Shown: piece after piece, positions 3,704-16,485 of the stretch
Numbering within the stretch: the stretch's first letter is position 1
How the letters are laid out: each line of letters opens with the position of its first letter
IMG/VR virus record: IMGVR_UViG_3300008262_000357
Location: 1 to 21,465 of that record
Reading direction: 5' to 3' (one strand)
Length of the DNA: 21,465 bases
Source of the DNA: a virus
Notes under the pieces: model-generated
The model's input: the letters and a program-made list of their open reading frames with translations, nothing else
What the model was told of the DNA's origin: nothing
The model's database searches: none
Position numbers and translations under genes: made by a program

Positions 3704-4001
3704 GCCGTTGTTTAGACCGCCAATGCATCTTGTAAAAGAGTGGCCGGAGGTATTTGAAGATATGTACATGAATACCATGCCTGTTGCATATCTTGAAATG
3801 GTACATTTAACGTTTGAAGATGGCAGGATATGGCAGATTGATGTACGTGCTCAACTCCAAGGGTCTGCTCCAGAATCTATCGCAGAAAAACTATTAGAGA
3901 CTCTTCAAGAGTACAAAGACGAAATAAAAAAGATAGATTTTAAAATAGATATAGAAAGATTGAAAAGAGATATTACCGATTCAACTAAGACTCTGTTTTA
4001 G
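3696..4001 (+). CDS. Small conserved phage protein, last gene of the + strand block (101 aa)
   Basis: The N-terminus is proline-rich (MPKPLFRPPMHLVKEWPEVF), followed by a beta-type segment VAYLEMVHLTFEDGRIWQI and a long charged C-terminal helical region (IAEKLLETLQEYKDEIKKID and onwards). No enzymatic motif is seen. The start overlaps the upstream gene by 8 bases. The 3' end overlaps the last codons of the convergent radical SAM gene by 17 bases, so the two strands share coding sequence at the boundary between the conserved block and the accessory region. Confidence 0.75.
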   Translation: MPKPLFRPPMHLVKEWPEVFEDMYMNTMPVAYLEMVHLTFEDGRIWQIDVRAQLQGSAPESIAEKLLETLQEYKDEIKKIDFKIDIERLKRDITDSTKTLF

Positions 4002-5220
4002 TAGGAAAAGTAATATCTCTTACTTTTTCAAAGAAAGCAATTTTATCTATGCCGTCTCGATATAGTTTTTCGTTTCTTCCAGACTTTATCATTTTTTCGA
4101 TATAACTTTTCAACATATCAATTCTTTCTCTGGTTCCGTTTCTTTCTAAGTATTCGAGATTATTTGATTCCCATTTGATATAATCTTCGTATATTTTATT
4201 TTTAGTTTCTTGAGGAAGATGTGTTGGATCAAAATATTTAGGGTTATAAACATAATTGAACATGGGATGAGGTTCAATCGATGTTAATTGTGTAGATATT
4301 TCTTTGTGCCAATCTAAAAACTCTATAATCCTATCACAGTTTAATGAACTAAATGTTGCATGTATCTGTATGCTAATATTTTCTTGTTCTTTAGCCACAG
4401 CATCAATAGTTTCTAAATTATCTATTAACTTATTCCATTTCATTGGATATCTAATAAATTCATTTAATTTACCGTAAGCATCAACACTTACACACAAATA
4501 AACACGTTTGAATTCTTTCCAACAGTCTAATATTTCTCTTGGTGTTTTAGTAAGATTAGAATTATAACTTAATACTATGTTCTTAGATATTCCGAGATCA
4601 ATAAATTTTTGTAAAAATGCTTGATGATCAATTATTAAAGGTTCGCCGCCAACAATATGTATTCTTTCAACCTTGCTGACAAAAGGATACAGTTTTTCAA
4701 GGCAACTTCCGTCATGATACCAATCTAACTTCATCATCCTATCATAATGTTCTATAGGTATTTGTTTGGTATCTAATTGTTCTTTTAGAAATAAAGTACT
4801 GTTAAATCCGTTACACATTACGCATTTAAGATTACATCTGTTACCGAACGTGATATCTAGATAATAAAATTCTGCTTCTTTGATAGTGCCGTCTGCGTCA
4901 CATTTCGAAATCCAATATTCTTCATCCATTGAAACTCCGAAACTTTCGTTGAACCATTGTCTCCAACTTATTTTTCCGTTACTTTCAATCTCCCAACATT
5001 TTTTACAAGTAGGATGTTTTTTATCTTCTATAAAATATTTTCTTATTTCTTTATGAAAATCATTATTAAAAGATTCTAAGACTTCAAACGTAGGATCGTT
5101 AAATTCTTTATTTTTTTCTAATCTATCATATCCTTGATTATTACAACATATACGTTGTCTGCCTGCATTATCAAGACTAAACGCAGCAAAAGGATATAGG
5201 CAAAAATTTTTTCTGGTCAT
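3985..5220 (-). CDS. Radical SAM protein with N-terminal SPASM/twitch-like cysteine domain (411 aa)
   Basis: Probable radical S-adenosylmethionine enzyme. The core motif is C129-x3-C133-x2-C136 (GNRCNLKCVMC), which would bind the [4Fe-4S] cluster that cleaves SAM, followed by GGEP at about 191-194 for SAM binding. In front of the core lies a cysteine domain: FCLYPF (C7), ICCNN (C25, C26) and CKKCWEIE (C72, C75). This resembles the SPASM/twitch pattern, which usually sits behind the core and binds auxiliary Fe-S clusters; here it is N-terminal, as in the family called N-terminal twitch radical SAM proteins. It is the last gene of a ten-gene overlapping run, overlaps its upstream neighbour by 4 bases, and ends in convergent overlap with a + strand gene. 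The substrate is unknown. Confidence 0.88.
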   Translation of the reverse strand: MTRKNFCLYPFAAFSLDNAGRQRICCNNQGYDRLEKNKEFNDPTFEVLESFNNDFHKEIRKYFIEDKKHPTCKKCWEIESNGKISWRQWFNESFGVSMDEEYWISKCDADGTIKEAEFYYLDITFGNRCNLKCVMCNGFNSTLFLKEQLDTKQIPIEHYDRMMKLDWYHDGSCLEKLYPFVSKVERIHIVGGEPLIIDHQAFLQKFIDLGISKNIVLSYNSNLTKTPREILDCWKEFKRVYLCVSVDAYGKLNEFIRYPMKWNKLIDNLETIDAVAKEQENISIQIHATFSSLNCDRIIEFLDWHKEISTQLTSIEPHPMFNYVYNPKYFDPTHLPQETKNKIYEDYIKWESNNLEYLERNGTRERIDMLKSYIEKMIKSGRNEKLYRDGIDKIAFFEKVRDITFPTKTES

Positions 5221-6176
5221 TTTTCTTTAGTAATTAATATATCAGTTCCGCAATGACAATAGTCCTTTTGACAGATAACGTCATTTGACGTTAATTTAAA
5301 AACATCAAATATGTTTCCTAACATTGGTCCTTGGCCGCAACTTGCGGCTCTCATTGTTCCGCTAGGTGAAATAAAAATAGATTCCTGAACTTTACATTTC
5401 CATCCTTGGAAAAAATTTCTGTTTTCTGCTACAATTCTATTACTATTCAAAGTCTTTACAGTGCCATCATCGTATTTTTCTACTGAAGCAATTACTGTTT
5501 TTGGTTCGGGTTTATATATAGTTACCTTAGATTCAAAATTATTTTTTGATATAAAATCCGATATTCTAGAATCTTTGTATTTCCACGGGCCCGTTACAAC
5601 ACTCATTTCATCTAATAGCGGAACCCATTCAAGATTGTAATTCTTTAATTTACTTTTAATTTCTGCTCCTACTGTTAACATGTCATCGAACTTTTCTTCT
5701 AACAGCATCATTCTTAAACAAAGATAATTTACTTTATTTTGTAAAAATTCTGCAATTTCTAAGTAATTTGATTTATTTGCAAACTCAGGATGATAACTAG
5801 CAACTACATCATCAAACAATTGATAATGTTTTTCCCACCAAGAAATTTTTCTACTTAGGTTTGTATTAATTCCTAAAGTTACATTATGACCCAATCTCTC
5901 TTTGAGAAAATTAGATACTGGTATTAAACCTTTCCAGAGGGTAGGTTCACCGCCACTGTAATAAAACTTGAAATATACATAACCGTTATCTTGATAATAT
6001 TTTATTATTTTTTCTAAATTTTCTAATAAAACATCAATTTTATCTTCATTAGTGTAAGACCCACTCCAGTTTCCTTCGTTACAATAACTACACCTATAAT
6101 TGCAAAAATTATTAACCTGCCATGTTATAGCAAGGTACGGATTGTCTTTGGGAGAAATGGCTATTAGATTCGGCAT
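5217..6176 (-). CDS. Radical SAM protein with C-terminal cysteine cluster (319 aa)
   Basis: Probable radical SAM enzyme of different architecture from its three neighbours: the core begins almost at the N-terminus with C25-x3-C29-x2-C32 (NFCNYRCSYC), then GGEP at about 74-77. The extra cysteines lie at the C-terminus: WKC near 260, ASCG near 279, and a CQKDYCHC cluster near 301-308, followed by GTDILITK. This is the usual order of a core followed by a twitch/SPASM-like auxiliary cluster. The phrase FISPSGTMRAASCGQG, with LGNIF after it, is typical of that region. It overlaps the upstream gene by 13 bases and the downstream gene by 4. The reaction and substrate are not identifiable from sequence; Fe-S chemistry is strongly indicated. 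Confidence 0.88.
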   Translation of the reverse strand: MPNLIAISPKDNPYLAITWQVNNFCNYRCSYCNEGNWSGSYTNEDKIDVLLENLEKIIKYYQDNGYVYFKFYYSGGEPTLWKGLIPVSNFLKERLGHNVTLGINTNLSRKISWWEKHYQLFDDVVASYHPEFANKSNYLEIAEFLQNKVNYLCLRMMLLEEKFDDMLTVGAEIKSKLKNYNLEWVPLLDEMSVVTGPWKYKDSRISDFISKNNFESKVTIYKPEPKTVIASVEKYDDGTVKTLNSNRIVAENRNFFQGWKCKVQESIFISPSGTMRAASCGQGPMLGNIFDVFKLTSNDVICQKDYCHCGTDILITKEK

Positions 6177-8617
6177 GATATCTCAAAAAATGTAGACTCG
6201 AAATTCGTGCCTCTATGTTTGTCCAGCAGTCTATTAAATTCTAAAAACTCACTGATCTTATCTTTTTGGTATTCTTCACTGTAATAGTATTCGTAAATTT
6301 TTTGGAACACTTCTTGACCTACATATCTATTTAGATGTTTTAGTTGTCCCTCTGCTTCTTGCATTTTAATCACAGCATCTGATCTCATTTCACTACTCCA
6401 TATTGTAGTGCGCATAAAATTTGGATTATCTAAGAAAATAGGATACCAACCCACAGGGCGATATTCTGCTTTGTTATCGAGATAACGCCATATGTCTGGT
6501 AAAGAAAATAAATTGTAAGCACTGATCACAGAATAAACAACAATCTTGATATTTGGCAGGGCTGCAATAGCAGTAAAGTTATTATCAAATTCTTGCCAAT
6601 TTAAAGGATGTCTAATATAATTTCCTTCATACCCAACACCATCTATACTGATCTGTATCTCATTATTAGGGAAATGAGACATTAAATCTAACAGTTCGCC
6701 TTCTGCTGTTGTACCATTAGTAGTAAAACTTACAAAACAATCTGTATTGTTAGATTCTATAAGATTTTTTAGTAATGTTCTATTTTCTTTGATCAAAGTC
6801 GGTTCGCCGCCTGTAAGGTATATTCTTTTAAGATTACCCGATACTTTCTGCATAGTATCTTTGTATGTTTCATTTTTAAACCATTTATTAATATCAGCAG
6901 GAATATTTCGTTCACTGGCCCACATTACCTGATATTTTTTATTTTCCGTCTCTTTATCTAAAATACGTTGCCGTTCTTCATTGACTTTACTACTACTGCC
7001 GCCCCAACATGAATTACAGGCCAAATTACAAGTATTGCCCAATCTTAATTCTAAACTAGTTAATTTGTCTAGAGATACTTTTGAATTGTGTAAAAATTCA
7101 TTTACTGACTTTATAACATTAATATCAGATTGATATTTTTTATTAGATTCAGTTCTACTGCTACTACCGGATAATTTTTCGTGTCTATAACAAACTTGGC
7201 AGTCAGAAACTTCTTCACCCACTAGCATTTTCCAGCGAGCATTCTGCATATGTTCGTTATTCCAAATTTCTTCTATAGAATCCTGACCTAAATTAAATTC
7301 AGTACCGTCAGATTTTTTAAGGTGTGAATTATCTCGCACAGTACAACAAAGTTTTACACTACCATCTGTATTGCTGTTTAAATTAAAGAAAGGAAATACA
7401 CAAAACGTTTTAGATCTCATCGATGGAATTTTTAAATGATCTCTAAGTTCTGGGAAAGTTTCAAAAAGATCTTCATTTCGAATGCTGTCAACTGATTGAT
7501 TAACGTATCCAAATTTTTCTGTTAATTTAAATTTATTGTCTGGTTCAGTCATTAAAAAATTTATCACGCTTTCAAACTGACTTACTACTGCTGAACTGGC
7601 TTCTGTATTTTTCATTACAGCCTTGGTCCATGTAATTAGTTCGTTCCATTTATCAATAATGACATGTTTATTTTCTAGCACATTGGCCTGTTGACGAGGA
7701 GGCTGTGTTAGTATATTCAATCTAATATTCTTAGGTTCTAGTAATTCTTCTAGTACCCACTCTTTATAGAAATCTGGAAAATGCCATACATTATAAAGAC
7801 TTATAGTAGGTGTGATATGGAATTTTACGCCGGGCAATAATTTTAATTTTTTCCTGTTTTCAACTATATTTTTCCATACAGTGCCTTTTCGTAAGTATTC
7901 GCCACGCTCCCATGATGCATCTAAACTAGCATACACTTCAACTCTATAAAACTTACTCCATAATTCAAAAAGATCTATCTGTTTGTATTTCAACGTGCTG
8001 AGATTCGTAGTATACATTAACTTGACATCGAAGCGTTTCATCTCGATCAATTTTGTTAAGGCAGCATAATGCTCTTCTTGCATCAATGCCTCACCCCCAG
8101 CAAAAACTATTTCTTCAGCAGTTTCCAACGCCTGTTCGTAATAATTCCAAAACTTTTCTCTTGGTATTTGAATAATTCCAGGATCTGGTTGATTTTTTAA
8201 AAGAGGAATCTCGGGTCCCCACTTACTGCTTAATTCGGGGCCACATGTTCTGCATTTGAAATTGCAGATATTACTAAATCTAATATCAAGATACCTAACT
8301 TCACTCATTGTATCTTTTTTTGATTCAACAATAGGAATTAGATGTTTCTTGAACGTAGCACTGGTTGATTGTCTTAGTGTTTGAATGCCTGATTCTTCTA
8401 ACTGATAACAACGCTTACATCCCTCAGGACGTTCGTTGTTTAGTAACTGGTGTCTTAATTGCTTGTAAGAATCGTTATTAACTAAATCTTCAATATGTTC
8501 TTGATTGATGTTTCCAAGAGGTTTACTTGAATCGTACATACAGCAAGGAAAAACCGACCCGTCTGGCCATGCATGAATTCCTACCCAGGGCTGTAAACAA
8601 AAATTGTCTTTATCCAT
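6164..8617 (-). CDS. Double radical SAM protein: two tandem twitch-core modules (817 aa)
   Basis: Two full-length modules are fused head to tail. Module 1 (residues about 1-400) has FCLQPW (C7), FPCCMY (C25, C26), CKRCYQLE (C67, C70), core C118-x3-C122-x2-C125 (CNFKCRTC) and GGEA at about 174-177. Module 2 (about 401-817) repeats the plan: FCVFPF (C406), LCCTV (C424, C425), CQVCYRHE (C473, C476), core C530-x3-C534-x2-C537 (CNLACNSC) and GGEP at about 603-606. Both cores keep all three cluster cysteines, so both may be active. Module 1 ends in LFETFPELRDHL and the whole protein in RGTNFESTFFEI, a tail also seen in the next radical SAM protein upstream. It overlaps both neighbours. No frameshift or stop separates the halves, so the fusion is real in this assembly. 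Confidence 0.88.
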   Translation of the reverse strand: MDKDNFCLQPWVGIHAWPDGSVFPCCMYDSSKPLGNINQEHIEDLVNNDSYKQLRHQLLNNERPEGCKRCYQLEESGIQTLRQSTSATFKKHLIPIVESKKDTMSEVRYLDIRFSNICNFKCRTCGPELSSKWGPEIPLLKNQPDPGIIQIPREKFWNYYEQALETAEEIVFAGGEALMQEEHYAALTKLIEMKRFDVKLMYTTNLSTLKYKQIDLFELWSKFYRVEVYASLDASWERGEYLRKGTVWKNIVENRKKLKLLPGVKFHITPTISLYNVWHFPDFYKEWVLEELLEPKNIRLNILTQPPRQQANVLENKHVIIDKWNELITWTKAVMKNTEASSAVVSQFESVINFLMTEPDNKFKLTEKFGYVNQSVDSIRNEDLFETFPELRDHLKIPSMRSKTFCVFPFFNLNSNTDGSVKLCCTVRDNSHLKKSDGTEFNLGQDSIEEIWNNEHMQNARWKMLVGEEVSDCQVCYRHEKLSGSSSRTESNKKYQSDINVIKSVNEFLHNSKVSLDKLTSLELRLGNTCNLACNSCWGGSSSKVNEERQRILDKETENKKYQVMWASERNIPADINKWFKNETYKDTMQKVSGNLKRIYLTGGEPTLIKENRTLLKNLIESNNTDCFVSFTTNGTTAEGELLDLMSHFPNNEIQISIDGVGYEGNYIRHPLNWQEFDNNFTAIAALPNIKIVVYSVISAYNLFSLPDIWRYLDNKAEYRPVGWYPIFLDNPNFMRTTIWSSEMRSDAVIKMQEAEGQLKHLNRYVGQEVFQKIYEYYYSEEYQKDKISEFLEFNRLLDKHRGTNFESTFFEISCRI

Positions 8618-9980
8618 AATTTTTACACATCTCTAAAAAATTTCTTAGTTGAGGGAAAGTTTCTTCAAAATTAGTTCCTCGTCTTCGATCGTACTCGTTG
8701 AACCAATTATAAAAATCTTTTCTTCCTTCAGTTAATTTATCATTGCTATAGTTGGTAGTTTCCATGTACTTCACTACCCTTAAAAATTTTTCATATTCTA
8801 ATTCACTAAATTTAAACCTATTTTTATCATCTAAATTATCTTTGATAAAATTTAAATGGTCGTACATGTAGGACATGAATTCTTCTTTAGGCAATATATT
8901 CATATCATACTGTAACGGTTCTTTTAAAAACGGAGTATCGAATCTCACACGTTGCCATTTGTTTTGATTATCATGATTATATTTCTGTCTCCACTCTAAA
9001 ATTTTAGTTAATAAAGTTGAAAAATTTGGAACCGTTAATATATTAAAGGTAATCATGAATGTTATGGGCAAATTGGTTTTAGTTAGGTAGGTATTGAGAT
9101 TTCTTTCCCATAGTTCAATGTCTAATCCTGTTCGAATATACTCTGCTTGGGGACCCCAAGTATCCATACTAGTGAAAATTTTAAAATCTTTAATTTTTTT
9201 ATTTTCTATTAAATTATTGACCTTTTCAGTAAGTCTATCTAAAAGTATAGGCTTTACACCAAAATTGCTGTTAATATTAAGTTCAAGATCAGGCGACGGG
9301 TTGTTTTCCAGATCTTCTAACAGGCGCCAAGTACTTTGTTGCAGTAACGGTTCGCCTCCTGTTATTCTTAGAATTGTCAGAGTATTACGTACTTCGGGCC
9401 ACCAACGCCACCAGGCATCTACATACGGATTATTTTCTTCTTCATAAATTTTAAACCAATCAATGTCGTTCCTATGATTTTTAACCATAGTATAAGGACC
9501 GTGATCTTTTATTTCTTTGTAATAACTGCTTGAATGTTTAGGGTGACAATACCCGCACTTGAAATTACATTCGTTACCAAAACTTATTTCTATATATTGA
9601 GGATTAATATTTTGATCCCAATCGCCGTTTTTAATCTGATCAAATCTTTCGGGATTGTAAATGCTGGCATTTCTTTCTTTTCGATCGCTGATATAATCTT
9701 CGCCTAGTGCTTCTATATTCCAACAATAGTTACAACCGCTGGGTTTTTCTCCATTGAGCATTTCCAGCCTTTCCATTTTCTTTTGAGTAGTATTATGTAA
9801 TGCACCAGGATTCATTATTAACTCTTCAAGAGGAATTGGGTGTGGAGGAGGGTGGTAACAACTATGAGTTTCACCTGTCTGTAAATAAATCGTAGTATGA
9901 TGCCATTTCGCTAAACAAAAAGTTGGCGAAACTTCATTCATAATAGGAATAAATTTTTGTATTCTAGCTTTATCCTGCAT
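8610..9980 (-). CDS. Radical SAM protein with N-terminal twitch-like domain, CC replaced by CYH (456 aa)
   Basis: Radical SAM core with C138-x3-C142-x2-C145 (CNFKCGYC) and GGEP at about 208-211. The N-terminal auxiliary domain has FCLAKW (C22), a His/Pro-rich segment THSCYHPPPHPIPLEE (C41), and CNYCWNIE (C83, C86). Where the sister modules have a CC pair, this one has CYH, so the auxiliary cluster may have a different ligand set. The C-terminus ends in RRRGTNFEETFPQLRNFLEM, a tail shared with the double protein downstream. I recall close relatives of this one in other marine T4-like phages. AAGAGA lies about 7-8 bases before the ATG. It is the first radical SAM gene transcribed after the glycosyltransferases and overlaps the large repeat protein by 11 bases. 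The substrate is unknown. Confidence 0.88.
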   Translation of the reverse strand: MQDKARIQKFIPIMNEVSPTFCLAKWHHTTIYLQTGETHSCYHPPPHPIPLEELIMNPGALHNTTQKKMERLEMLNGEKPSGCNYCWNIEALGEDYISDRKERNASIYNPERFDQIKNGDWDQNINPQYIEISFGNECNFKCGYCHPKHSSSYYKEIKDHGPYTMVKNHRNDIDWFKIYEEENNPYVDAWWRWWPEVRNTLTILRITGGEPLLQQSTWRLLEDLENNPSPDLELNINSNFGVKPILLDRLTEKVNNLIENKKIKDFKIFTSMDTWGPQAEYIRTGLDIELWERNLNTYLTKTNLPITFMITFNILTVPNFSTLLTKILEWRQKYNHDNQNKWQRVRFDTPFLKEPLQYDMNILPKEEFMSYMYDHLNFIKDNLDDKNRFKFSELEYEKFLRVVKYMETTNYSNDKLTEGRKDFYNWFNEYDRRRGTNFEETFPQLRNFLEMCKNYG

Positions 9981-11958
9981 TAAATTTTTCTCTTAACCAG
10001 TCAAAATCGTTTATCTTCTTAAGTGTTTCGAAGTTACCTTTATTCTGCTCTCCGTATGCACGACCTGCTAATGCTCCTGCAATGGCATAGTATCCGTAAT
10101 CCCCATCAGCAACTTCACACCATGTATCTAATCGTTTAATTGTTTCGTCATTGTCTTGTCTTTCTATTACCTTGCTGGCTAACTTAGCGCATTCTCTAAA
10201 TGCACTTTTCCATGTATTAAAAGGATCAGTATTGAAGACTGTGATATTAGATACAACATTCATCGATTTGAATTTTTTAGATATAGATGTAGTCATGTCG
10301 GCAGTATTTAAGTCCATATTCAATGTTAATAATCTTGGAAGCAATTTTACTCCGCCATATCCGTATTCTAAACCGTTAATAGGGTTCCGACTACTCCATA
10401 CGTGAACGCAATCTACATCATAACTGTAACTAAAATATACTAGATCAAAATTGAAATCATTGGATATGATAGCATCACCATCCACTATCCATAACATGTC
10501 TGTTTCTGACAATTCCGCTGCCTTAATATGAGCCCGATGTATTCCTTTTACACCGTGTACTCTCTTAGCCCTGGGACATTTATCTAGTAATTTTTGATAG
10601 TTTTCATCTGCATTCGGTTCATTATAACTTATAAAAACTACATCATATAATTTATGTTTGGAGATAACTTTATCATTTTCTTTTTTATTGGTTAAAAATC
10701 TATGAGAAAATTCTCGTTTTCCTATAGGACTCTGTTTAGAAAATAATACTGGACTATTCATTGATATTATCTTATCATTGAAACTATGTTTAAATGTGTT
10801 ATTTTCGCTGGTGTCGTATTGTTCTTTCCAGTCTCTGGGATCGAAATATAAACCAAAAATAGATTGATCTATAATTTCAACTTCTGGCCATATACCCCAG
10901 AACATTTTTTGACTTTCATTGTTTAAAATTTCTAAGTACTGCTCATAACTATGCATAACATATCTAGGATATCTATAACGACTAACAACCTTGTTATGTT
11001 CTTTTTTCTCGATTAGATATCTGCGAGAAAATTCTTTTTTCGATATGGTTTTCTCTTTAGAAAATAAAACAAGTCCGTTAAGATAAGACTCTTCATTATT
11101 ACATAAATTTTTAAACATATGATTTTGATGTCTGTCAGCATCATATTCTTTATTGTTAGGATCAAAGTAAAAATCAAGTATTGTTGTGTCAATTATTTCA
11201 ATCTCTGGCCATATACCCCAAAACATACTTTGGCTTTTGTTGTTTAAAATTTCTAAGTATTGTTCATAACTATGTATAACATGCCTAGGGTATCTAAATT
11301 TGCTGGCAGTTACATCGTATTCTTTTTTATCAACAAGATATTGTTTTTCAAACTCTCGAGATGAAATTCGCTTATACCTGCTACAAAGCACGATGCCACT
11401 CATATACGAATCAACTTCGTTACATGTGTTTTTAAAAATATGATTTTCTCTGCGATCATATGTGTTATGATGGCTGAAATATAAATCAAAAATAGATTCG
11501 TCTGTAACTTCAACCTCTGGCCATACACACCAGAACATTTCATCTTCTATAGACTTGTACTCATCATATGATTGCGGAGTATAGATATTATATTTCTTTG
11601 GAGTACTGGCGTTAATCTCTATTTCTTTTTTTGCTGTAAAAAATCTATGATGAAATTCTTTCTGAGAAACATTTAATGATTTAGGAAATAAACAAACTCC
11701 GTCATAATGTTCTCCGTTTTTAAAAACGTGAACATACATATCGTCCCATTTTGTTGCTCTATAATTATTTAAATTAAATGTTTTTAGTAAATTAAGATCA
11801 TCCCACACTACCCAAAACATTTTTGTAAATGCTTTTGACTTAATTTGTTCGTAGGATGTTACATTTGTTAAACGTTGTGCAATAGGATATTCTGACTTAA
11901 ATGTTGCCCAGTCATCATCATTGCCTTTTGTTTTTGAAACGTAAAAAATATCATACAT
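9970..11958 (-). CDS. Glycosyltransferase-like protein with four degenerate internal repeats (662 aa)
   Basis: The C-terminal domain (about 437-662) begins YDVVFISYNEPNADENY and contains RAKRVHGVKG and the DGDA motif (D493-x-D495), a GT-A-type metal/nucleotide-sugar signature. It is clearly paralogous to the gene just upstream. Before it lie four repeats starting at MFW residues 47, 141, 245 and 352 (spacing 94, 104 and 107). Their pattern is MFW-x-IWPE, then FDLYF, YD, H-x-FKN, VLFSK, KEF, YL-x-KKE. Each can be laid against the glycosyltransferase core: MFWxVW matches MLWIVDGD and FKN matches WSSRN, but the DxD is lost. They may be non-catalytic glycosyltransferase-like modules used for binding or spacing. 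There is no signal peptide or membrane segment, and no clear ribosome binding site; translation probably depends on coupling to the overlapping upstream gene. Confidence 0.8.
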   Translation of the reverse strand: MYDIFYVSKTKGNDDDWATFKSEYPIAQRLTNVTSYEQIKSKAFTKMFWVVWDDLNLLKTFNLNNYRATKWDDMYVHVFKNGEHYDGVCLFPKSLNVSQKEFHHRFFTAKKEIEINASTPKKYNIYTPQSYDEYKSIEDEMFWCVWPEVEVTDESIFDLYFSHHNTYDRRENHIFKNTCNEVDSYMSGIVLCSRYKRISSREFEKQYLVDKKEYDVTASKFRYPRHVIHSYEQYLEILNNKSQSMFWGIWPEIEIIDTTILDFYFDPNNKEYDADRHQNHMFKNLCNNEESYLNGLVLFSKEKTISKKEFSRRYLIEKKEHNKVVSRYRYPRYVMHSYEQYLEILNNESQKMFWGIWPEVEIIDQSIFGLYFDPRDWKEQYDTSENNTFKHSFNDKIISMNSPVLFSKQSPIGKREFSHRFLTNKKENDKVISKHKLYDVVFISYNEPNADENYQKLLDKCPRAKRVHGVKGIHRAHIKAAELSETDMLWIVDGDAIISNDFNFDLVYFSYSYDVDCVHVWSSRNPINGLEYGYGGVKLLPRLLTLNMDLNTADMTTSISKKFKSMNVVSNITVFNTDPFNTWKSAFRECAKLASKVIERQDNDETIKRLDTWCEVADGDYGYYAIAGALAGRAYGEQNKGNFETLKKINDFDWLREKFNAG
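10651..11820 (-). repeat. Four tandem protein-coding repeats of about 94-107 codons
   Basis: The units begin at 11820, 11538, 11226 and 10905 (reading down the - strand). The last three are close enough to see at DNA level; for example the stretch GTTTAAAATTTCTAAGTA occurs at 10921 and again 321 bases away at 11242, in frame. Units 3 and 4 share almost the same YRYPRYVMHSYEQYLEILNN segment with unit 2. The first unit is the most diverged. The gradient suggests repeated in-frame duplication, with the youngest copies in the middle and toward the C-terminus. Confidence 0.75.
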
Positions 11959-12868
11959 CTGCAGGCACCGGCATCCGGAAATAAGTGTCGTTTAGATTCA
12001 TAGTTTCATTATATAAATCCAAAGTATATTTGCTCTGTTGGGCATCTAGCCAAGGCCAATCTAATCCTAGATTGTATTTTATTTTTTCTCCGAGATTTTT
12101 TATTTCGTCAACTAGGCCGTCTTCGTTAACTTCTTCATAAGGTTTTCCGTACTGCTGCCATATACCTCTAAGTATTTCAAAATCTCTTACATCTACATAA
12201 TTCCATTCGGTGCAGTTGGCCATCCATGTGCCTAATCTTGCACCATATACTGCATAGATTCCATTTTCTTCATGGCTACCAACTGTAGACCACATGCGCA
12301 GTCTATGGATATTATGCCACCATATTCTCTGTTGTATTTCTTGTGCAGGAACTTTAACACCATCAAGTAAGGTCATTTTAACACCTTCTCGAAATCCTGC
12401 TCTCCAAGCCTGAAATGGAGAACCTGTAATGATACTGTCGCTAAAACTTAAAGGAAAGTTACGATATCCATCTTCCCAACAAAAATCTACTTGTCCGCGA
12501 TCACTATCTGAGTTTTCGTGCGTTTTCATGTTAAGGACAAAATCTTTCTTCCAAATTTTTAATCCGCCGTTTCCGTAACGCAATCCGTTGATCACATTAC
12601 GACCGCACCATCCATAGACCTGTATCTTAGGATCACTCATATCTAGATCAATATTAAAAAATTTAGGATCTACAATATTATCAGCATCCACAGTGATAAA
12701 CCAATCAGTATCTGATAAATTTGCTGCGGCTTTGTGAGCATGGTCGGAACCTTTAACACCGTGTACACGTTTAGCCCAAGGTACCTTACTGCATAAATCA
12801 GCATAATGCAGATCTGCATTAGGCTCGTCATAACTTAAAAAGATTACATCAAATTCAATTGTTTTCAT
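11951..12868 (-). CDS. GT-A-like glycosyltransferase family protein (305 aa)
   Basis: Probable glycosyltransferase of a family common in marine phages. It begins FDVIFLSYDEPNADLHY, has AKRVHGVKGSDHAHKAAA and the D61-A-D63 motif in WFITVDADNIVDPKFF, then CGRNVINGLRYGNGGLK and AWRAGFREGVKM. The same ordered blocks occur in the C-terminal domain of the 662-residue neighbour, so the two are paralogues and this one is the plain, repeat-free form. The DxD motif argues for a metal-dependent nucleotide-sugar enzyme; donor and acceptor are unknown. It overlaps the upstream gene by 14 bases and the downstream gene by 8. No Shine-Dalgarno sequence is evident before the ATG, which again suggests translational coupling. 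Confidence 0.75.
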   Translation of the reverse strand: MKTIEFDVIFLSYDEPNADLHYADLCSKVPWAKRVHGVKGSDHAHKAAANLSDTDWFITVDADNIVDPKFFNIDLDMSDPKIQVYGWCGRNVINGLRYGNGGLKIWKKDFVLNMKTHENSDSDRGQVDFCWEDGYRNFPLSFSDSIITGSPFQAWRAGFREGVKMTLLDGVKVPAQEIQQRIWWHNIHRLRMWSTVGSHEENGIYAVYGARLGTWMANCTEWNYVDVRDFEILRGIWQQYGKPYEEVNEDGLVDEIKNLGEKIKYNLGLDWPWLDAQQSKYTLDLYNETMNLNDTYFRMPVPADV

Positions 12869-13442
12869 TTATAAGAATATATTTTTTAAAAATGCGACGT
12901 GTATACACACTAAATTTTTGAGGCAATTTAATTTGAAAACTTTTTTCCTCGTCAATTAACTGATTTAATTGTATTGAAAATTTTTCAAAAAGTATATTAG
13001 GATCGTTGTATTCAGTGATGTAAAAATCCATTATAGTATCACCGTTATAATGAATCCTTTTTTTTGATTTTACTTTGTCTGACAAAGAAAAAATTAAATT
13101 ATTATCTTTGACACTGATTGTTAGGTCGGGATCTTTTGAATCGGCCCAGCGACTGTCTATTATTCTGTGTAGAACATCGTCAATTTTAATCAACGATTTA
13201 ATTTCTATTATTTCAAGAGTATCTGATTCAAAATCAATATAACAATTAGCCAATGATATTTTTCCAGAACCTATGGCTTCTCCTGTTTCTTGATCTACTT
13301 TAATTTTATGTTCGAAGGAATCTGCAGATTGGTTAGGATATATTCCTTTTACTTTACCCGTTTCAGGATCATAAACTGCCCAGTACTCAATTTCTATATT
13401 ATGAGTTTGATACCATTGATCGAAGTCAATTACTTCTTCCAT
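12855..13442 (-). CDS. Protein of unknown function with YWAVYDPETGKV motif (195 aa)
   Basis: Two Pro/Glu-Thr-Gly phrases are prominent near the N-terminus: IEYWAVYDPETGKVKGIYPN (residues about 17-36) and KVDQETGEAIGSGK (about 48-61). The rest is strand-rich with many Ile/Asp/Lys residues and a basic C-terminus (VYTRRIFKKYILI). Such DPETG phrases occur in beta-stranded virion or fibre-associated proteins of marine phages, but I cannot name this family. A good ribosome binding site (GAGGAAA) lies before the ATG, unlike its neighbours. It sits between two types of glycosyltransferase and could be an acceptor, an adaptor or a virion protein; this is inference only. Confidence 0.65.
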   Translation of the reverse strand: MEEVIDFDQWYQTHNIEIEYWAVYDPETGKVKGIYPNQSADSFEHKIKVDQETGEAIGSGKISLANCYIDFESDTLEIIEIKSLIKIDDVLHRIIDSRWADSKDPDLTISVKDNNLIFSLSDKVKSKKRIHYNGDTIMDFYITEYNDPNILFEKFSIQLNQLIDEEKSFQIKLPQKFSVYTRRIFKKYILINENN

Positions 13443-14257
13443 GCTGTTTCCTCAAGTATACTGATTATTTCATCCAGGATAATATCTTTATTAACATAAT
13501 GTATAAGATCTTTCTGTTGAAAATTTCCTATTTTTAATCCAGTTTTGTTAAAATAAAATCCCACATGATTGGTCCATTCGTCAGCAGGCCAAGGCCAGTT
13601 TTGTACTTGACCTTTCATGTGTACTACGTTAGGAAATTCTAATTTAGGAAATTCTAGTTCTAACAATTTTGCAGACAAAGCAAACGCTTCATCTGTTCCA
13701 ATTATTTTAGGTTTGAATTCGTTGAGAAAAACATTAGAAAATTCTGTAGGATTATTATAAATTTCCCTTTGTAAAGTAAAAAATTCTTTTACTTGATCTG
13801 AATCTCGTTTGAAGAATGTATAATAACTATATAGGTTTGGCAAGTTATTAGCCGTAAATGTCTTTCTATAATAATCGGAAGTTACAGGCTCGCCTCTATA
13901 GGTAAACGCTCTGTCTGTGATAAACAAATCTGTATTTTCAATAAAGTATTGTGCCCAATGACTGCAATCATTTAAAAATAACATGTCAACATCTAAACAG
14001 ACTGTGTAATCAAAAGGACTCAATTGGTCCATATAACTTCTGCCAGACCAACCAGTGTGTCCCGGATGTTCTATTATTTGATCAAACACCCACGAAGATG
14101 TAAAATTTTTTGCTGACGACAAATCGTCTGTAACTAAGCAGACTTGATCATACCCTTCTTTCTGTGTGTTTTTTATACTCAACGCTAACGCATAGGCTAG
14201 TTTGTTATAGTTAACAGATTCGTTTTTTGAGGTGATTAGTAAATATCCAAATTTCAT
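13430..14257 (-). CDS. GT8-like glycosyltransferase (275 aa)
   Basis: The N-terminal half looks like a GT-A Rossmann fold: FGYLLITSKNESVNYNKLAY, then YDQVCLVTDD, then SPFDYTVCLDVDMLFLND with D89-V-D91 as the DxD metal site. Later segments include TDLFITDRAF, LYSYYTFFKRD, IGTDEAFALSA and an FPNVVHMKGQ block, arranged as in family-8-type transferases. No transmembrane segment is seen. It shares the YD/FD-x-T-x-x-xD-x-D logic with the next gene upstream (14254-15111), so the pair is probably paralogous. It is coupled to that gene by an ATGA overlap. Donor and acceptor are unknown. The general class is supported by the DxD and fold-like order; the exact family is uncertain. Confidence 0.7.
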   Translation of the reverse strand: MKFGYLLITSKNESVNYNKLAYALALSIKNTQKEGYDQVCLVTDDLSSAKNFTSSWVFDQIIEHPGHTGWSGRSYMDQLSPFDYTVCLDVDMLFLNDCSHWAQYFIENTDLFITDRAFTYRGEPVTSDYYRKTFTANNLPNLYSYYTFFKRDSDQVKEFFTLQREIYNNPTEFSNVFLNEFKPKIIGTDEAFALSAKLLELEFPKLEFPNVVHMKGQVQNWPWPADEWTNHVGFYFNKTGLKIGNFQQKDLIHYVNKDIILDEIISILEETAWKK

Positions 14258-15111
14258 ATTAATTTAAGCAAAACTTCACTGTTCCTTATCAAACTCTGTT
14301 TGTTCATAACATGAACATCTTGATTCTTGATAGAGATTGCAACGTAATCGTCATTACCTTGATTAATTAAAAAAATTAATTTTCCGTTGGCATCTATATC
14401 CACTAATAGATCTTTATCTGTAGTTGTGGGTATTGACGGTAAACTTTGTTCTTGAGATTTGTTATATCCGTCTAGTATATGTTTAGCAACGCTAAATGAA
14501 ATATCGTTCCTATAAGGTCTAGGATAAAATCTAAAAAGATCACAATAATAAGAATAATTTTCTTTTATGTAGTCTACCAAATTAAAAAATATTTTTGTAT
14601 TTTCATTTTTTGTAAAAACTACATTAGTTGCCCAATATAAGTTAGGGCCAGTGTCTGAAACATACTTGTCTAAAGTGCCTACTCGATTTCCGCCTAGATC
14701 GATCATAGATTCTCCAATCATTAGATCAATATCAGAATCAATATGAGATTTTAATCTGTCTGAAAAAATTAAAAAATCACTGTCAATTAATAATGTTCTA
14801 TCGTAAGGAGTTAAATCCCAAACTGAAAATCTATTGTTGTTAATAAAAGGAACATTGTCTATAAGATTACCATCACTTAATGTTCTATAATTTTCTGAGT
14901 AAGGACGTTCGGTTATAATAATTTGATCAAAAACAGATTCGGCATCTTTTATAGCACTGCTAGTACTCATCCAATCCATAGTAGATTGATCAGTTATCAA
15001 AGAGACTGGCATCTGAAGATGCTTTTTCGCTAGGCCGCCAGCGATTATAGACATAAGACTATAATCAACCTTTCGGCTGTTATGAGCGAAAATAACTATT
15101 CCTTTTTTCAT
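14254..15111 (-). CDS. GT-A-like glycosyltransferase-related protein (285 aa)
   Basis: It begins KGIVIFAHNSRKVDYSLMSI, has PVSLITDQST and FDQIIITERP strands and the DxD-type motif D110-S-D112 in YDRTLLIDSDFLIFSD, followed by IDLMIGESM and LYWATNVVFTKN. The last 65 residues (LLVDIDANGKLIFLINQGND, then YVAISIKNQDVHVMNK) form a separate strand-rich C-terminal part not seen in the neighbour at 13430. It overlaps the upstream and downstream genes by 4 bases each, and no strong ribosome binding site is visible. The sugar donor is unknown. A non-catalytic role is possible because the motif context is less typical. Confidence 0.65.
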   Translation of the reverse strand: MKKGIVIFAHNSRKVDYSLMSIIAGGLAKKHLQMPVSLITDQSTMDWMSTSSAIKDAESVFDQIIITERPYSENYRTLSDGNLIDNVPFINNNRFSVWDLTPYDRTLLIDSDFLIFSDRLKSHIDSDIDLMIGESMIDLGGNRVGTLDKYVSDTGPNLYWATNVVFTKNENTKIFFNLVDYIKENYSYYCDLFRFYPRPYRNDISFSVAKHILDGYNKSQEQSLPSIPTTTDKDLLVDIDANGKLIFLINQGNDDYVAISIKNQDVHVMNKQSLIRNSEVLLKLI

Positions 15112-15458
15112 AGTTCTATAAGTTTATCTACTGATCTAGATTTTTTTATTTTTTCGTACTGCCTAAAATATTCATAAACCGCAGTCATATACCTATCTAA
15201 TATTTCGTCTTTGAAGGTATTCAAATCAGAAATTAAAATAGGTGTGTCATTTGAATCTAGGAGAGGAACATTTTCAGTTCTCTGTTGGTCGATTAACATT
15301 TGAACAAATACTATCAAAGATCTATCAATTTTAAAGATGCCTCCATTATAACCGTAGGTTAGATTAGCATCAATTTTTTCTTTGAGATTTTTACGTTCTA
15401 ATGTTAGTGTTTGCCTAAATTTTGAAAAATCTAGGGCTTTAGCCAGACGTTCGTCCAT
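15108..15458 (-). CDS. Small conserved phage protein, first gene of the accessory operon (116 aa)
   Basis: A helical protein: MDERLAKALDFSKFRQTLTL opens it, LTYGYNGGIFKIDRSLIVFV lies in the middle, then VPLLDSNDTPILISDL and a helical, basic end (VYEYFRQYEKIKKSRSVDKL). I recall it as a conserved protein found beside fibre or virion structural genes of marine T4-like phages. Its function is unknown; a fibre-assembly or structural role is suggested by position only. The ATG has a clear Shine-Dalgarno sequence (TAGGAG, 5-base spacing), which also forms one arm of the hairpin at 15464-15507. It is the first gene behind the strongest late promoter in the window. Confidence 0.75.
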   Translation of the reverse strand: MDERLAKALDFSKFRQTLTLERKNLKEKIDANLTYGYNGGIFKIDRSLIVFVQMLIDQQRTENVPLLDSNDTPILISDLNTFKDEILDRYMTAVYEYFRQYEKIKKSRSVDKLIEL

Positions 15459-15463
15459 GTGAA

Positions 15464-15507
15464 CTCCTATAAAATACGCACATTATTTATATGTGGTTTT
15501 ATAGGAG
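15464..15507 (-). promoter_or_regulatory. Hairpin that sequesters the Shine-Dalgarno of the 15458 gene, with the late promoter in its loop
   Basis: CTCCTATAAAA (15464-15474) and TTTTATAGGAG (15497-15507) are perfect 11-base reverse complements, with an inner five-base pair of arms CACAT (15479-15483) and ATGTG (15491-15495). On the - strand the 3' arm contains the TAGGAG ribosome binding site. RNA read through from the fibre genes carries both arms and could bury the site; RNA started at the late promoter inside the loop lacks the 5' arm and would be free. No U-run follows, so it is not a typical terminator. The pairing is seen; the regulatory effect is inferred. Confidence 0.6.
15484..15491 (-). 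promoter_or_regulatory. T4-type late promoter, perfect TATAAATA
   Basis: This is an exact match to the T4 late -10 consensus, ending 25 bases before the start codon at 15458. Transcription would begin near 15477-15478. It would drive the ten overlapping genes down to 3985, placing the glycosyltransferases and radical SAM enzymes in the late programme. A functional assignment requires a phage-encoded gp55-like sigma elsewhere in the genome. Confidence 0.65.
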
Positions 15508-15513
15508 GAAAAA

Positions 15514-16485
15514 TTAACTACCGGAAATAGCGCCTACTGTAGATGCACCGCCACCGACTAATATCGGGCCAGTAATAGCAAAACTGTTAGGAATCAATGA
15601 AGGAGCCAACTCGCCTCTAGCCCGTACTTGATCTACACTTAATGATAGTGTTCCTGTTACTTCGTCAAAAGGAAGAACGGTAGTTGGTGTATGTGGAGAT
15701 GTTGCAGGATCAACATAATTATCCTGCCATCTTACTGTTAGTATAACGGATGTTGCGGTACTGGTAGTTCCACTTGCCAATCTAGCCTGCAACACCCATG
15801 TGTTTGCAGTATAGGGACTACTGGCTTGGAATGACCAAACCTGTTGATCAGATGTGGTCAATTGCCAAAAACCAATATTATTGTATGTGGCATTACCGCC
15901 AGAGGCAGGATATAAAGTAGAATTACCGGCAAAGAACGGCTGGCCTGCACCACTTAATAAACTAGACCATCTTTGATCTTGAAGAGTTCCTGACCCGCCT
16001 GATCTAGTGCTGGCAAATCGTATTTTACCGCCACTGTTAAAGAAATATCTACAGGCATTATTGTCTGCAAAATTGATTGTGACTGTGGAAGTAACTAAAG
16101 AAGTCCAATTAGAGAATCTTGATTGTGATCCAATAGCCTCTGTAACAAACTGCCCTGTGCCTAAATTGAATTTATTTGTTATGGCTTGATCTGCTAATGT
16201 GTTATATTGAAAATTAGGATGGGATGTTCCGTATCTTATAACATCGCCTTCATTAATTGTAGTAATACTAGGTGCTGAACCGGTTTGGTGTACTATGGCA
16301 TTATAGATATCAAATCTTAAATTGTCCCATTGTGCTTTAGTTACTGTGGCTCCTGATGATAATGCTGTAGGAGCATTCAAAGTTTGACCATATCCACTGT
16401 TAGTAGAACCTGGTCCCATGATACCAGAAATTTTAGTTCTAATATTGTTATAGTCTGTTACACTAATTAAATCACCGATTGGCAT
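15514..16485 (-). CDS. Virion structural / fibre-associated protein (323 aa)
   Basis: The N-terminus MPIGDLISVTDYNNIRTKIS, with GYGQTLNAP and TVTKAQWDNLRFDIYNAI after it, matches a group of virion structural proteins of marine T4-like phages that I recognise by pattern. The middle is Ser/Thr/Gly/Asn-rich beta structure (NACRYFFNSGGKIRF, RWSSLLSGAGQPFFAG, GFWQLTTSDQQVW, then ILTVRWQDNYVD). The C-terminus is a small glycine/serine tail (ILVGGGASTVGAISGS). Probable role: fibre or baseplate-associated component, perhaps host binding. The stop codon of the upstream fibre gene forms part of its Shine-Dalgarno region (TAAGGAA), so the two are translated in tandem. It is the last fibre gene before the hairpin and late promoter. 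Confidence 0.75.
   Translation of the reverse strand: MPIGDLISVTDYNNIRTKISGIMGPGSTNSGYGQTLNAPTALSSGATVTKAQWDNLRFDIYNAIVHQTGSAPSITTINEGDVIRYGTSHPNFQYNTLADQAITNKFNLGTGQFVTEAIGSQSRFSNWTSLVTSTVTINFADNNACRYFFNSGGKIRFASTRSGGSGTLQDQRWSSLLSGAGQPFFAGNSTLYPASGGNATYNNIGFWQLTTSDQQVWSFQASSPYTANTWVLQARLASGTTSTATSVILTVRWQDNYVDPATSPHTPTTVLPFDEVTGTLSLSVDQVRARGELAPSLIPNSFAITGPILVGGGASTVGAISGS

Follow-up and report, generated by a model that had tools for sequence, protein, structure and literature searches.

What would a phage do with five radical S-adenosylmethionine (SAM) enzyme cores encoded side by side? The question is raised by the window analysed here, a virus record of 21,465 bases (IMGVR_UViG_3300008262_000357, classed as 'linear' and possibly a fragment), in which the four overlapping minus-strand genes A411, B319, C817 and D456 carry five such cores. 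This is as the original prediction, made from the DNA letters, had described it: coordinates, overlaps (A/B 4, B/C 13 and C/D 8 bases) and motifs all agree, and family scores bear it out. We find that the five-core array is the 3' part of a longer unit that extends upstream through E, F, G, H, I and J, giving a ten-gene minus-strand run from J116 to A411 (15458–3985) in which each neighbouring pair of genes overlaps by 4–14 bases. The reading that we favour, and whose chance we put just short of even, is that this is a glycosylation operon of T4-like phages, expressed late and directed at the virion, with the array as its tailoring end.

Radical-SAM cores, selection and age of the array

The members of the array are as follows, with scores against the NCBIfam family N_Twi_rSAM (NF033640) or the Pfam family Radical_SAM (PF04055):

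3985–5220, minus strand: A411, twitch radical-SAM protein and last gene of the operon; NF033640, 288 bits; own slot in the tree
5217–6176, minus strand: B319, radical-SAM protein in which a C-terminal cysteine cluster replaces the N-terminal twitch; PF04055, 33.7 bits
6164–8617, minus strand: C817, two fused twitch radical-SAM units; NF033640 places of 363 and 305 bits
8610–9980, minus strand: D456, twitch radical-SAM protein and constant member of the array; NF033640, 315.5 bits

All five cores are intact: CNLKCVMC with GGEP in A, CNYRCSYC with GGEP in B, CNFKCGYC with GGEP in D and, in C, CNFKCRTC with GGEA (first core) and CNLACNSC with GGEP (second core). Against N_Twi_rSAM, with its curated cut-off of 170 bits, A (288 bits), D (316 bits) and C (656 bits in two stretches) score far beyond chance. 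The Pfam model (cut-off 29.5 bits) is passed by B and C (63 bits), with A (27.9 bits) and D (20.1 bits) below it; as Pfam falls short for these two, they are assigned to the radical-SAM enzymes through NCBIfam, their motifs and, for D, the predicted fold, which is that of a radical-SAM protein (AlphaFold2 model, predicted local distance difference test (pLDDT) 85). A, both halves of C and D thus resemble the NF033640 family in score, N-terminal cysteine cluster and intact core, whereas B lies outside it (34 bits), C is a fusion and the slots of the phage arrays are old and form mostly position-specific clades; furthermore, the definition of NF033640 holds no linkage to an F-type transferase or to an operon with a late-type leader, both of which are found here. 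Prokaryotic viperin (NF038283) was ruled out by score, the best being 58 bits (C) against a cut-off of 180.

Relatives were sought in IMG/VR with C817 (13 loci), with B319 (the best 80 of 97) and with D456, for which at least 600 stretches were found, at least 583 were confirmed as related and the best 80 were taken, giving 79 new loci, so that counts from the D scan describe the closest relatives; a second relative set comprised 78 loci from the best 80 of 257 rows. Numbers with L and G label loci and contigs, and protein alignments were restricted to full-length open reading frames (ORFs). In these alignments, C7, C25, C26, C67 and C70 ahead of the core are invariant in the twitch proteins (58 rows), as are cysteines 22, 41, 83 and 86 (auxiliary) and 138, 142 and 145 (core) in D (29 rows) and C25/29/32 and C261/280/302/307/309 in B (35 rows), and binding of auxiliary and core iron-sulfur (Fe-S) clusters by the array proteins is predicted from these conserved residues.

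The original prediction had proposed that the array is maintained by selection, and had named loss of core cysteines and absence of clustering in relatives as signs of decay. Neither was encountered. Among ORFs lying wholly inside the B-scan loci, CxxxCxxC is kept in 195/195 twitch, 76/76 D and 80/81 B-labelled sequences, the sole exception being an ORF of 215 amino acids at 25 bits (nine more ORFs without the motif are cut by the locus edge), and in the D scan it is kept in 77/77 D and 13/13 twitch ORFs. A walk upstream from B leads to D in 76 of the 80 B-scan contigs and runs into the contig edge in the other 4. Ratios of nonsynonymous to synonymous substitution (dN/dS) against L008 are low throughout (A 0.039, B 0.076, C 0.016, D 0.048). 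The motif in every uncut ORF but one weakly labelled one, the invariant cysteines and the low dN/dS together rule out decaying copies.

A quick tree of 128 rows, with 31 of 125 inner branches weak and several branches long, places D on one supported branch that includes cellular D-like proteins. The slots labelled -1, -2 and -3 fall mostly into groups of their own, by position and not by phage; the first unit of the window's C stands beside the -1 group with weak support, and its second unit and A belong to other old groups. Slot labels change 23 times over the tree compared to a mean of 80 after shuffling (0/200 shuffles as low). Recent tandem duplication is ruled out by this grouping, which favours distinct steps over recent copies.

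A conserved operon with a constant D gene

The genes upstream of the array are listed below, together with the genes that precede the operon, where a gap of 55 bases separates J from K323 and further fibre-like genes follow, two of them with matches to tail or virion-structural families of PHROG:

9970–11958, minus strand: E662, N-terminal part and C-terminal F-like domain; fast-evolving
11951–12868, minus strand: F305, GT-A-like fold, probable glycosyltransferase (AlphaFold2 model and fold searches)
12855–13442, minus strand: G195, small variable protein, overlapping ORF; DUF5620 match below threshold
13430–14257, minus strand: H275, likely glycosyltransferase, glycogenin/GT8-like (weak profile matches)
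14254–15111, minus strand: I285, putative transferase with invariant D110-x-D112 (32-row alignment)
15108–15458, minus strand: J116, first gene of the operon; no cysteine; position behind K conserved
15514–16485, minus strand: K323, putative structural or tail-fibre-like protein and candidate substrate, named by position and a 22-row alignment
16496–18241, minus strand: tail fibre/virion structural protein (phrog_19602 tail fiber, E 1.9e-16; phrog_14394 virion structural, E 6.9e-11)

In the contigs of relatives, fibre-like genes are followed by J, I and H, in some cases G, then F, in some cases E, and then D, the twitch genes and B; J or G goes unrecognised in part of these contigs. Overlap of neighbours is general (J/I 116/117, I/H 128/128, F/F 87/87, F/D 139/147, D/twitch 79/83 and twitch/B 74/76), in counts that take the first possible start codon, which can lengthen overlaps. 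From D to B, the B-scan contigs hold three cores in 1 case, four in 42, five in 30 and six in 3; the window has four over this distance, plus A after B. Many relatives beyond the window's clade have separate genes of about 390–455 amino acids in place of the fused C817 (L029–L097).

Gene D itself has at least 583 confirmed related stretches in IMG/VR and is the most conserved of the aligned families (57–85% identity to the window, as against 23–85% for K, from differing row sets). An F-like gene stands directly before it in 79/79 D-scan loci and in 67/76 B-scan contigs. The gene after D varies: of the 79 D-scan loci, 8 have a twitch gene there, 1 has a D-like gene, 66 have another gene (with a twitch gene second in some of them) and 4 end at this point. 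Since an F-like gene precedes D in all of these loci whilst the following gene changes, D and the genes upstream form the core of the system and the array is one of several downstream options. The earlier suggestion that the array forms a multi-step pathway holds only in part: the old slots do point to distinct, maintained steps, but the array does not stand free. It occupies the 3' end of an operon that also has transferase-like genes, and what comes after D differs from phage to phage.

This fixed linkage to transferase-like and fibre genes bears on whether the enzymes are auxiliary metabolic genes that serve the host, for instance in heme synthesis ('ahbD') or cofactor maturation. Viral surveys list ahbD as common (PMC9301287, in the passages cited), and 5 of the 58 twitch rows do touch the AhbD model (TIGR04545) at E ≤ 0.001, the best at 2.3e-6. 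All 58 rows, however, match N_Twi_rSAM, with a best E of 1.5e-117; heme synthase is unsupported as a family name, and with the operon context added we consider a metabolic role for the host very improbable.

The phages that carry the array or D appear, from genes on the contigs of relatives, to be T4-like, the window itself being a fragment: a T4-like gp23 capsid gene is found in 7/13 contigs of relatives, a weak gp55-like stretch (about 75–105 residues, E 1.7e-8 to 9.8e-6) in 5/6 contigs of the window's clade and a weak gp55-like match in 7/9 contigs of another set, two contigs being common to both gp55 sets. A search of 50,697 phage records at E 1e-5, which may leave out records near the window's own genome, gave no match to D, B, F, K and E of the window or to a relative of H; for D, B, F, K and the relative of H this implies that the cultured phages there would not reveal the system. 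Matches to C817 at 23–28% identity come from Vibrio phages K566 and K567 and one single-cell virus; those to the twitch protein of L029, at 21–23%, come from the same three and from Vibrio phages QD01 and VS1.

The L029 (170 kb) and L245 (217 kb) phage contigs hold 18 and 14 N_Twi_rSAM-like matches at several places in the genome, and six contigs of the window's clade hold 5 each.

Transferase-like genes upstream of the array

The AlphaFold2 model of F (pLDDT 87, predicted TM-score 0.86) finds as its best Foldseek matches the structures of the PBCV-1 capsid glycosyltransferase (2p6w at E 6.8e-6, range to 2.0e-5), followed by SunS, ThuS and other GT-A enzymes. In VIA, B4GALNT1 is found at Z 11.0 (root-mean-square deviation (rmsd) 3.1 over 143 residues) and 2p72 at Z 9.8 (rmsd 3.4 over 140). 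With the PBCV-1 enzyme (2p6w/2p72/2p73) F shares the GT-A fold, although the likeness is at fold level (15–20% identity, TM-score by F length 0.23–0.28) and does not imply that F acts on a capsid. D61 and D63 are invariant in the F alignment, and F305 is a probable glycosyltransferase of GT-A-like fold. Residues 438–656 of E match F at 34% identity (E 3.6e-33) and form a second F-like domain; the N-terminal part of E contains degenerate repeats as judged by eye, of which self-BLAST reported none. Compared with L009 and L008, E is 53–63% identical in amino acid sequence, and K and the remaining operon genes 69–98%; against L008 the values are 63% for E and 92–98% for the other genes. The gene in the place of E varies from 221 to 674 amino acids between phages, and E is perhaps a variable part that sets acceptor or host specificity. 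The profile of H (33 rows) matches glycogenin (E 0.001) and one of the 33 rows matches Glyco_transf_8 (E 0.004), so that H275, too, is likely to be a glycosyltransferase as far as its sequence profile tells.

The resemblance of F to SunS and ThuS, which are peptide S-glycosyltransferases, brings in the strongest rival to a glycan-tailoring array, namely that the radical-SAM enzymes modify amino acids of virion proteins directly, in the manner of ribosomally synthesised and post-translationally modified peptides (for instance by cross-linking, epimerising or oxidising residues in K, J or a fibre), with the transferases then glycosylating the modified residues. N_Twi_rSAM proteins carry an auxiliary cluster of SPASM/twitch-like type, many peptide maturases are among the sub-threshold matches, and in VIA, D is closest to SkfB (Z 12.0, with 223 residues aligned at rmsd 3.6). 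However, SkfB is tied in Z with BlsE (11.8; 218 residues at rmsd 3.4), DesII (11.4; 270 at 5.0) and MoaA (11.2; 228 at 4.1), and the fold of D hence does not separate a peptide from a sugar substrate. J has no cysteine and K one, which makes thioether chemistry unlikely there; the ten overlapping genes leave no room for a separate precursor-peptide gene, although the modified protein may be J116 or a fibre; and some of the enzymes found at the same place in other phages are sugar enzymes. Overall, we regard direct protein modification as the less likely of the two readings but as a strong rival.

A late-promoter motif inside a leader hairpin

Two features lie in the gap between K and J:

15464–15507, minus strand: predicted RNA hairpin, with the Shine-Dalgarno sequence AGGAG (15464–15468) in its 3' arm
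15484–15491, minus strand: TATAAATA, T4-type late-promoter motif, in the loop region of the hairpin

This copy of TATAAATA is the only exact one in the window, where 3.5 are expected by chance. The hairpin has a minimum free energy of -16.3 kcal/mol (z -5.86), with 0/200 shuffles as good. Of 87 unique J leaders, 41 were used for comparison (6/6 from the window's clade and 35/40 from the D scan), picked after their folds had been seen: TAAATA is found in 41/41 at -29 to -35, is enclosed by a pair in 40, and the Shine-Dalgarno sequence is paired in 38, at a mean z of -3.8. The five D-scan leaders left out (L241, with a miscalled start, L259, L218, L229 and L210) also contain TAAATA as judged by eye, with energies of -1.6 to -9.9 kcal/mol, and the remaining 41 unique leaders belong to B-scan clades and to phage contigs in metagenome-assembled genomes (MAGs) and are of other kinds. 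RNAalifold reported no common pair in the leader alignment, probably due to arms of varying length being out of register in the MAFFT alignment, and we therefore relied on single-sequence folding with an arm-swap control. Here the arms prove to co-vary: across the 41 leaders the native 5' arm folds 5.8 kcal/mol better on average than a foreign one and beats the mean in 38/41 cases, while 220 of the 1590 foreign arms do as well as the native one, which ranks first in 11/41. ATAAATA occurs in unique upstream regions of the D scan ahead of J in 27/40, of K in 1/57 and of I, H, F, D and twitch genes in 0/267, although the regions before overlapping genes are coding and hence no neutral control.

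Such a layout is known from T4 gene e and I-TevI, where a late promoter is placed at a hairpin that sequesters the ribosome-binding site; late transcripts lack the 5' part of this hairpin, and they alone are translated (PMC3014915 and PMC2988022, in the sections cited). The operon shares with them the promoter motif inside the hairpin, and TATAAATA is shaded upstream of T4 gene e in the cited display; it differs in that the hairpin heads a ten-gene enzyme operon in place of lysozyme or a homing endonuclease. The hairpin with its late-promoter motif also heads J in L185–L263, as putative T4 gene e/I-TevI-type control placed on an enzyme operon.

The leader and the tie to fibre genes also bear on hypermodification of phage DNA. 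Phage glycosyltransferases and QueE-type radical-SAM enzymes act in DNA modification, and C matches a QueE-like PHROG family at E 1.2e-9. Set against this, a comparison of 20 window proteins with PHROGs recognised none as belonging to DNA modification, and the unit goes with fibre genes and a late-type leader, all of which leaves DNA as the substrate only the faintest chance.

Enzymes downstream of D and the sugar context

Downstream of D, 156 non-redundant ORFs were collected, of which 141 were compared with Pfam, 11 backbone proteins and 4 others being excluded by a size limit. Many match no Pfam model. Among the remainder are 10 matches to NAD-epimerase/GDP-mannose dehydratase and 4 to UDP-glucose dehydrogenase, 7 to 2-oxoglutarate (2OG)-Fe(II) oxygenase, 4 to B12-binding radical-SAM, 3 to GDSL and 1 to DegT. 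Within 12 ORFs after B, a nucleotide-sugar enzyme, as labelled by phmmer against a small reference set, is present in 55/80 B-scan contigs; of the remaining 25, 9 end within this distance.

Sugar enzymes and transferases next to fibre genes could also serve to alter the surface glycan of the host against superinfection, as has been proposed for the glycosyltransferases of pelagimyophages, which stand with radical-SAM cassettes in a host-recognition region (PMC7029224, in the passages cited). A crude hydropathy test found no ORF with two or more membrane-like segments among 169 plus-strand ORFs of 10 island loci, which argues against a Wzx/Wzy-type route. The leader architecture, moreover, points to late-only translation, whereas exclusion would presumably be useful early. 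We thus regard modification of the host surface as decidedly unlikely.

A proposed tailoring operon for the virion

The reading of a virion-directed glycosylation operon draws together the fibre neighbours, the late-type leader, the transferase-like enzymes without membrane segments, the nucleotide-sugar enzymes in most array relatives and the constant D; that the array performs distinct tailoring steps is suggested by its old slots and by the other enzymes that occupy the same place elsewhere. Late in infection, a phage sigma factor would start transcription inside the K–J hairpin, which would remove the 5' arm and free the ribosome-binding site of J, and the overlapping genes J-I-H-G-F-E-D-C-B-A would be made together with the tail fibres. 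A short glycan may then be put together in the cytoplasm by the transferases, its most likely carrier being a fibre protein encoded just upstream; D would make a fixed radical-chemistry change to the glycan or its carrier, with the twitch and B enzymes contributing other modifications, for example dehydrogenation, deoxygenation, epimerisation or C-C/C-O joining. In other phages, such changes may be brought about by the epimerases, UDP-sugar dehydrogenases or 2OG oxygenases encoded at this place. In all this, we infer the time of expression, the glycan or glycoprotein substrate, the location on the virion and every individual reaction.

A number of observations weigh against this reading. With regard to sugars, nucleotide-sugar enzymes are scarce in the window's own clade, where an epimerase is found in 2/6 contigs that are probably one phage, given their identical gene layout and match scores; several island genes, including those labelled by eye 'GTx430' and 'Amidinotransf', have no Pfam match, and these labels are not relied upon; and cellular relatives of the array have no consistent sugar context, the commonest Pfam family being Radical_SAM in 6 of 150 neighbours (150 of 182 neighbour proteins used). 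As to the proteins, the solved structures nearest to D in fold include enzymes for peptides and for sugars alike, at tied Z, HddC is among the Foldseek matches of F, and nucleotidyltransferases are tied in Z with the glycosyltransferases in VIA (IspDF 10.4, MobA 9.6), a glycosyltransferase being favoured for F through D61/D63 and the operon context. The profile of I (32-row alignment) matches neither solved structures nor glycosyltransferase families; K323 gave no informative match in family and profile searches, and its profile found no relevant relative among solved structures. Two twitch copies outside the arrays, on the L029 and L245 contigs, hold an internal stop codon. In the leader, TATAAATA is not enriched genome-wide over a reversed control pattern, so that the promoter reading depends on position, conservation and the hairpin; in the B scan, ATAAATA stands ahead of J in 4/42 only, compared to 8/39 for K and 5/399 for other genes. 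The J leaders of other clades carry a sigma70-like TTGACA/TATAAT pair or a CTAAATACTC leader, as judged by eye, and the hairpin switch is accordingly not universal.

More broadly, and somewhat more tentatively, we propose that a group of T4-like phages may decorate its virion with a radical-edited glycan or a glycosylated, radically modified fibre, using fixed transferases and D together with exchangeable cassettes (twitch/B arrays, B12 radical-SAM enzymes, epimerases or 2OG oxygenases), with silencing by the promoter-in-hairpin until late in infection in part of the group. Were this so, it would be a modular, phage-borne system for diversifying glycans, with radical-SAM enzymes used on virus particles, and uncultured T4-like phages would hold unexplored glycan chemistry, perhaps tied to host recognition or escape from defence. 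Phage radical-SAM genes have previously been listed with no role shown in the passages cited (PMC5332604, PMC7029224, PMC9301287); the conserved operon makes such a role directly testable, as a modified fibre or glycan on the virion.

Relation to described phages

Radical-SAM clusters in T4-like phages are already in print; what is new is the fixed operon and its control. The section cited of Nishimura et al. 2017 (PMC5332604) describes T4-like environmental phages rich in radical-SAM genes, with 12 in TARA_ERS488813_N000010 alongside an A-type Fe-S carrier. These phages resemble ours in type, in their many radical-SAM genes and in the carrier, whereas that section gives counts and does not describe an operon, linkage to transferases, slots or control. 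Of the 13 array phages here, 5 have an A-type Fe-S carrier (G001, G002, G003, G012 and G013, the contigs of L007, L008, L012, L052 and L072), which perhaps loads their many Fe-S enzymes.

In pelagimyophages, tail fibres, glycosyltransferases and radical-SAM cassettes share one variable host-recognition region (PMC7029224); according to the passages cited that cluster is non-syntenic, whereas the order K-J-I-H-(G)-F-(E)-D is kept here and mainly the part after D varies. The freshwater phages of that work have, in the same passages, no radical-SAM genes. 'ahbD' is common in viral surveys, with 261 in the Baltic (PMC9301287, in the part cited), and some of these survey genes may be N_Twi_rSAM proteins, though few of our twitch rows touch the AhbD model. 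An aquatic lineage of jumbo phages with four core glycosyltransferases goes without mention of radical SAM in the sections cited (PMC12619734). No description of the operon, the constant D, the exchangeable cassettes or the leader was found in searches of open-access literature and in the passages cited, most subscription journals lying outside this coverage.

Related gene sets in other genomes and a further window gene

Radical-SAM sets of similar type occur in cellular bins. The Elusimicrobia MAG bin-0981 has tandem runs of up to about 6 or 7 twitch radical-SAM genes on many contigs (L112, L115, L118–L123, L128), and Bdellovibrionota MAG contigs L110, L111, L124, L127 and L130 carry twitch-B or D/twitch sets; the phage module may have come from, or passed to, such cells. 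In L124 the set adjoins ribosomal-protein and obg-like genes, named by eye, and in the Bdellovibrionia contig L111, which L110 resembles, a twitch-B-twitch' set lies near a carbamoyltransferase and a short-chain dehydrogenase, a single case. The order K-J-I-H-F-D is also found on L107, L108, L109 and L141, binned as Verrucomicrobia, Pelagibacter, Betaproteobacteria and Rhodobacteraceae MAGs, and these are probably phage contigs. At the other end of the window, an exonuclease gene (95–1081) is 49–52% identical to genes of jumbo phages PA5oct and CBB and of Erwinia phages.

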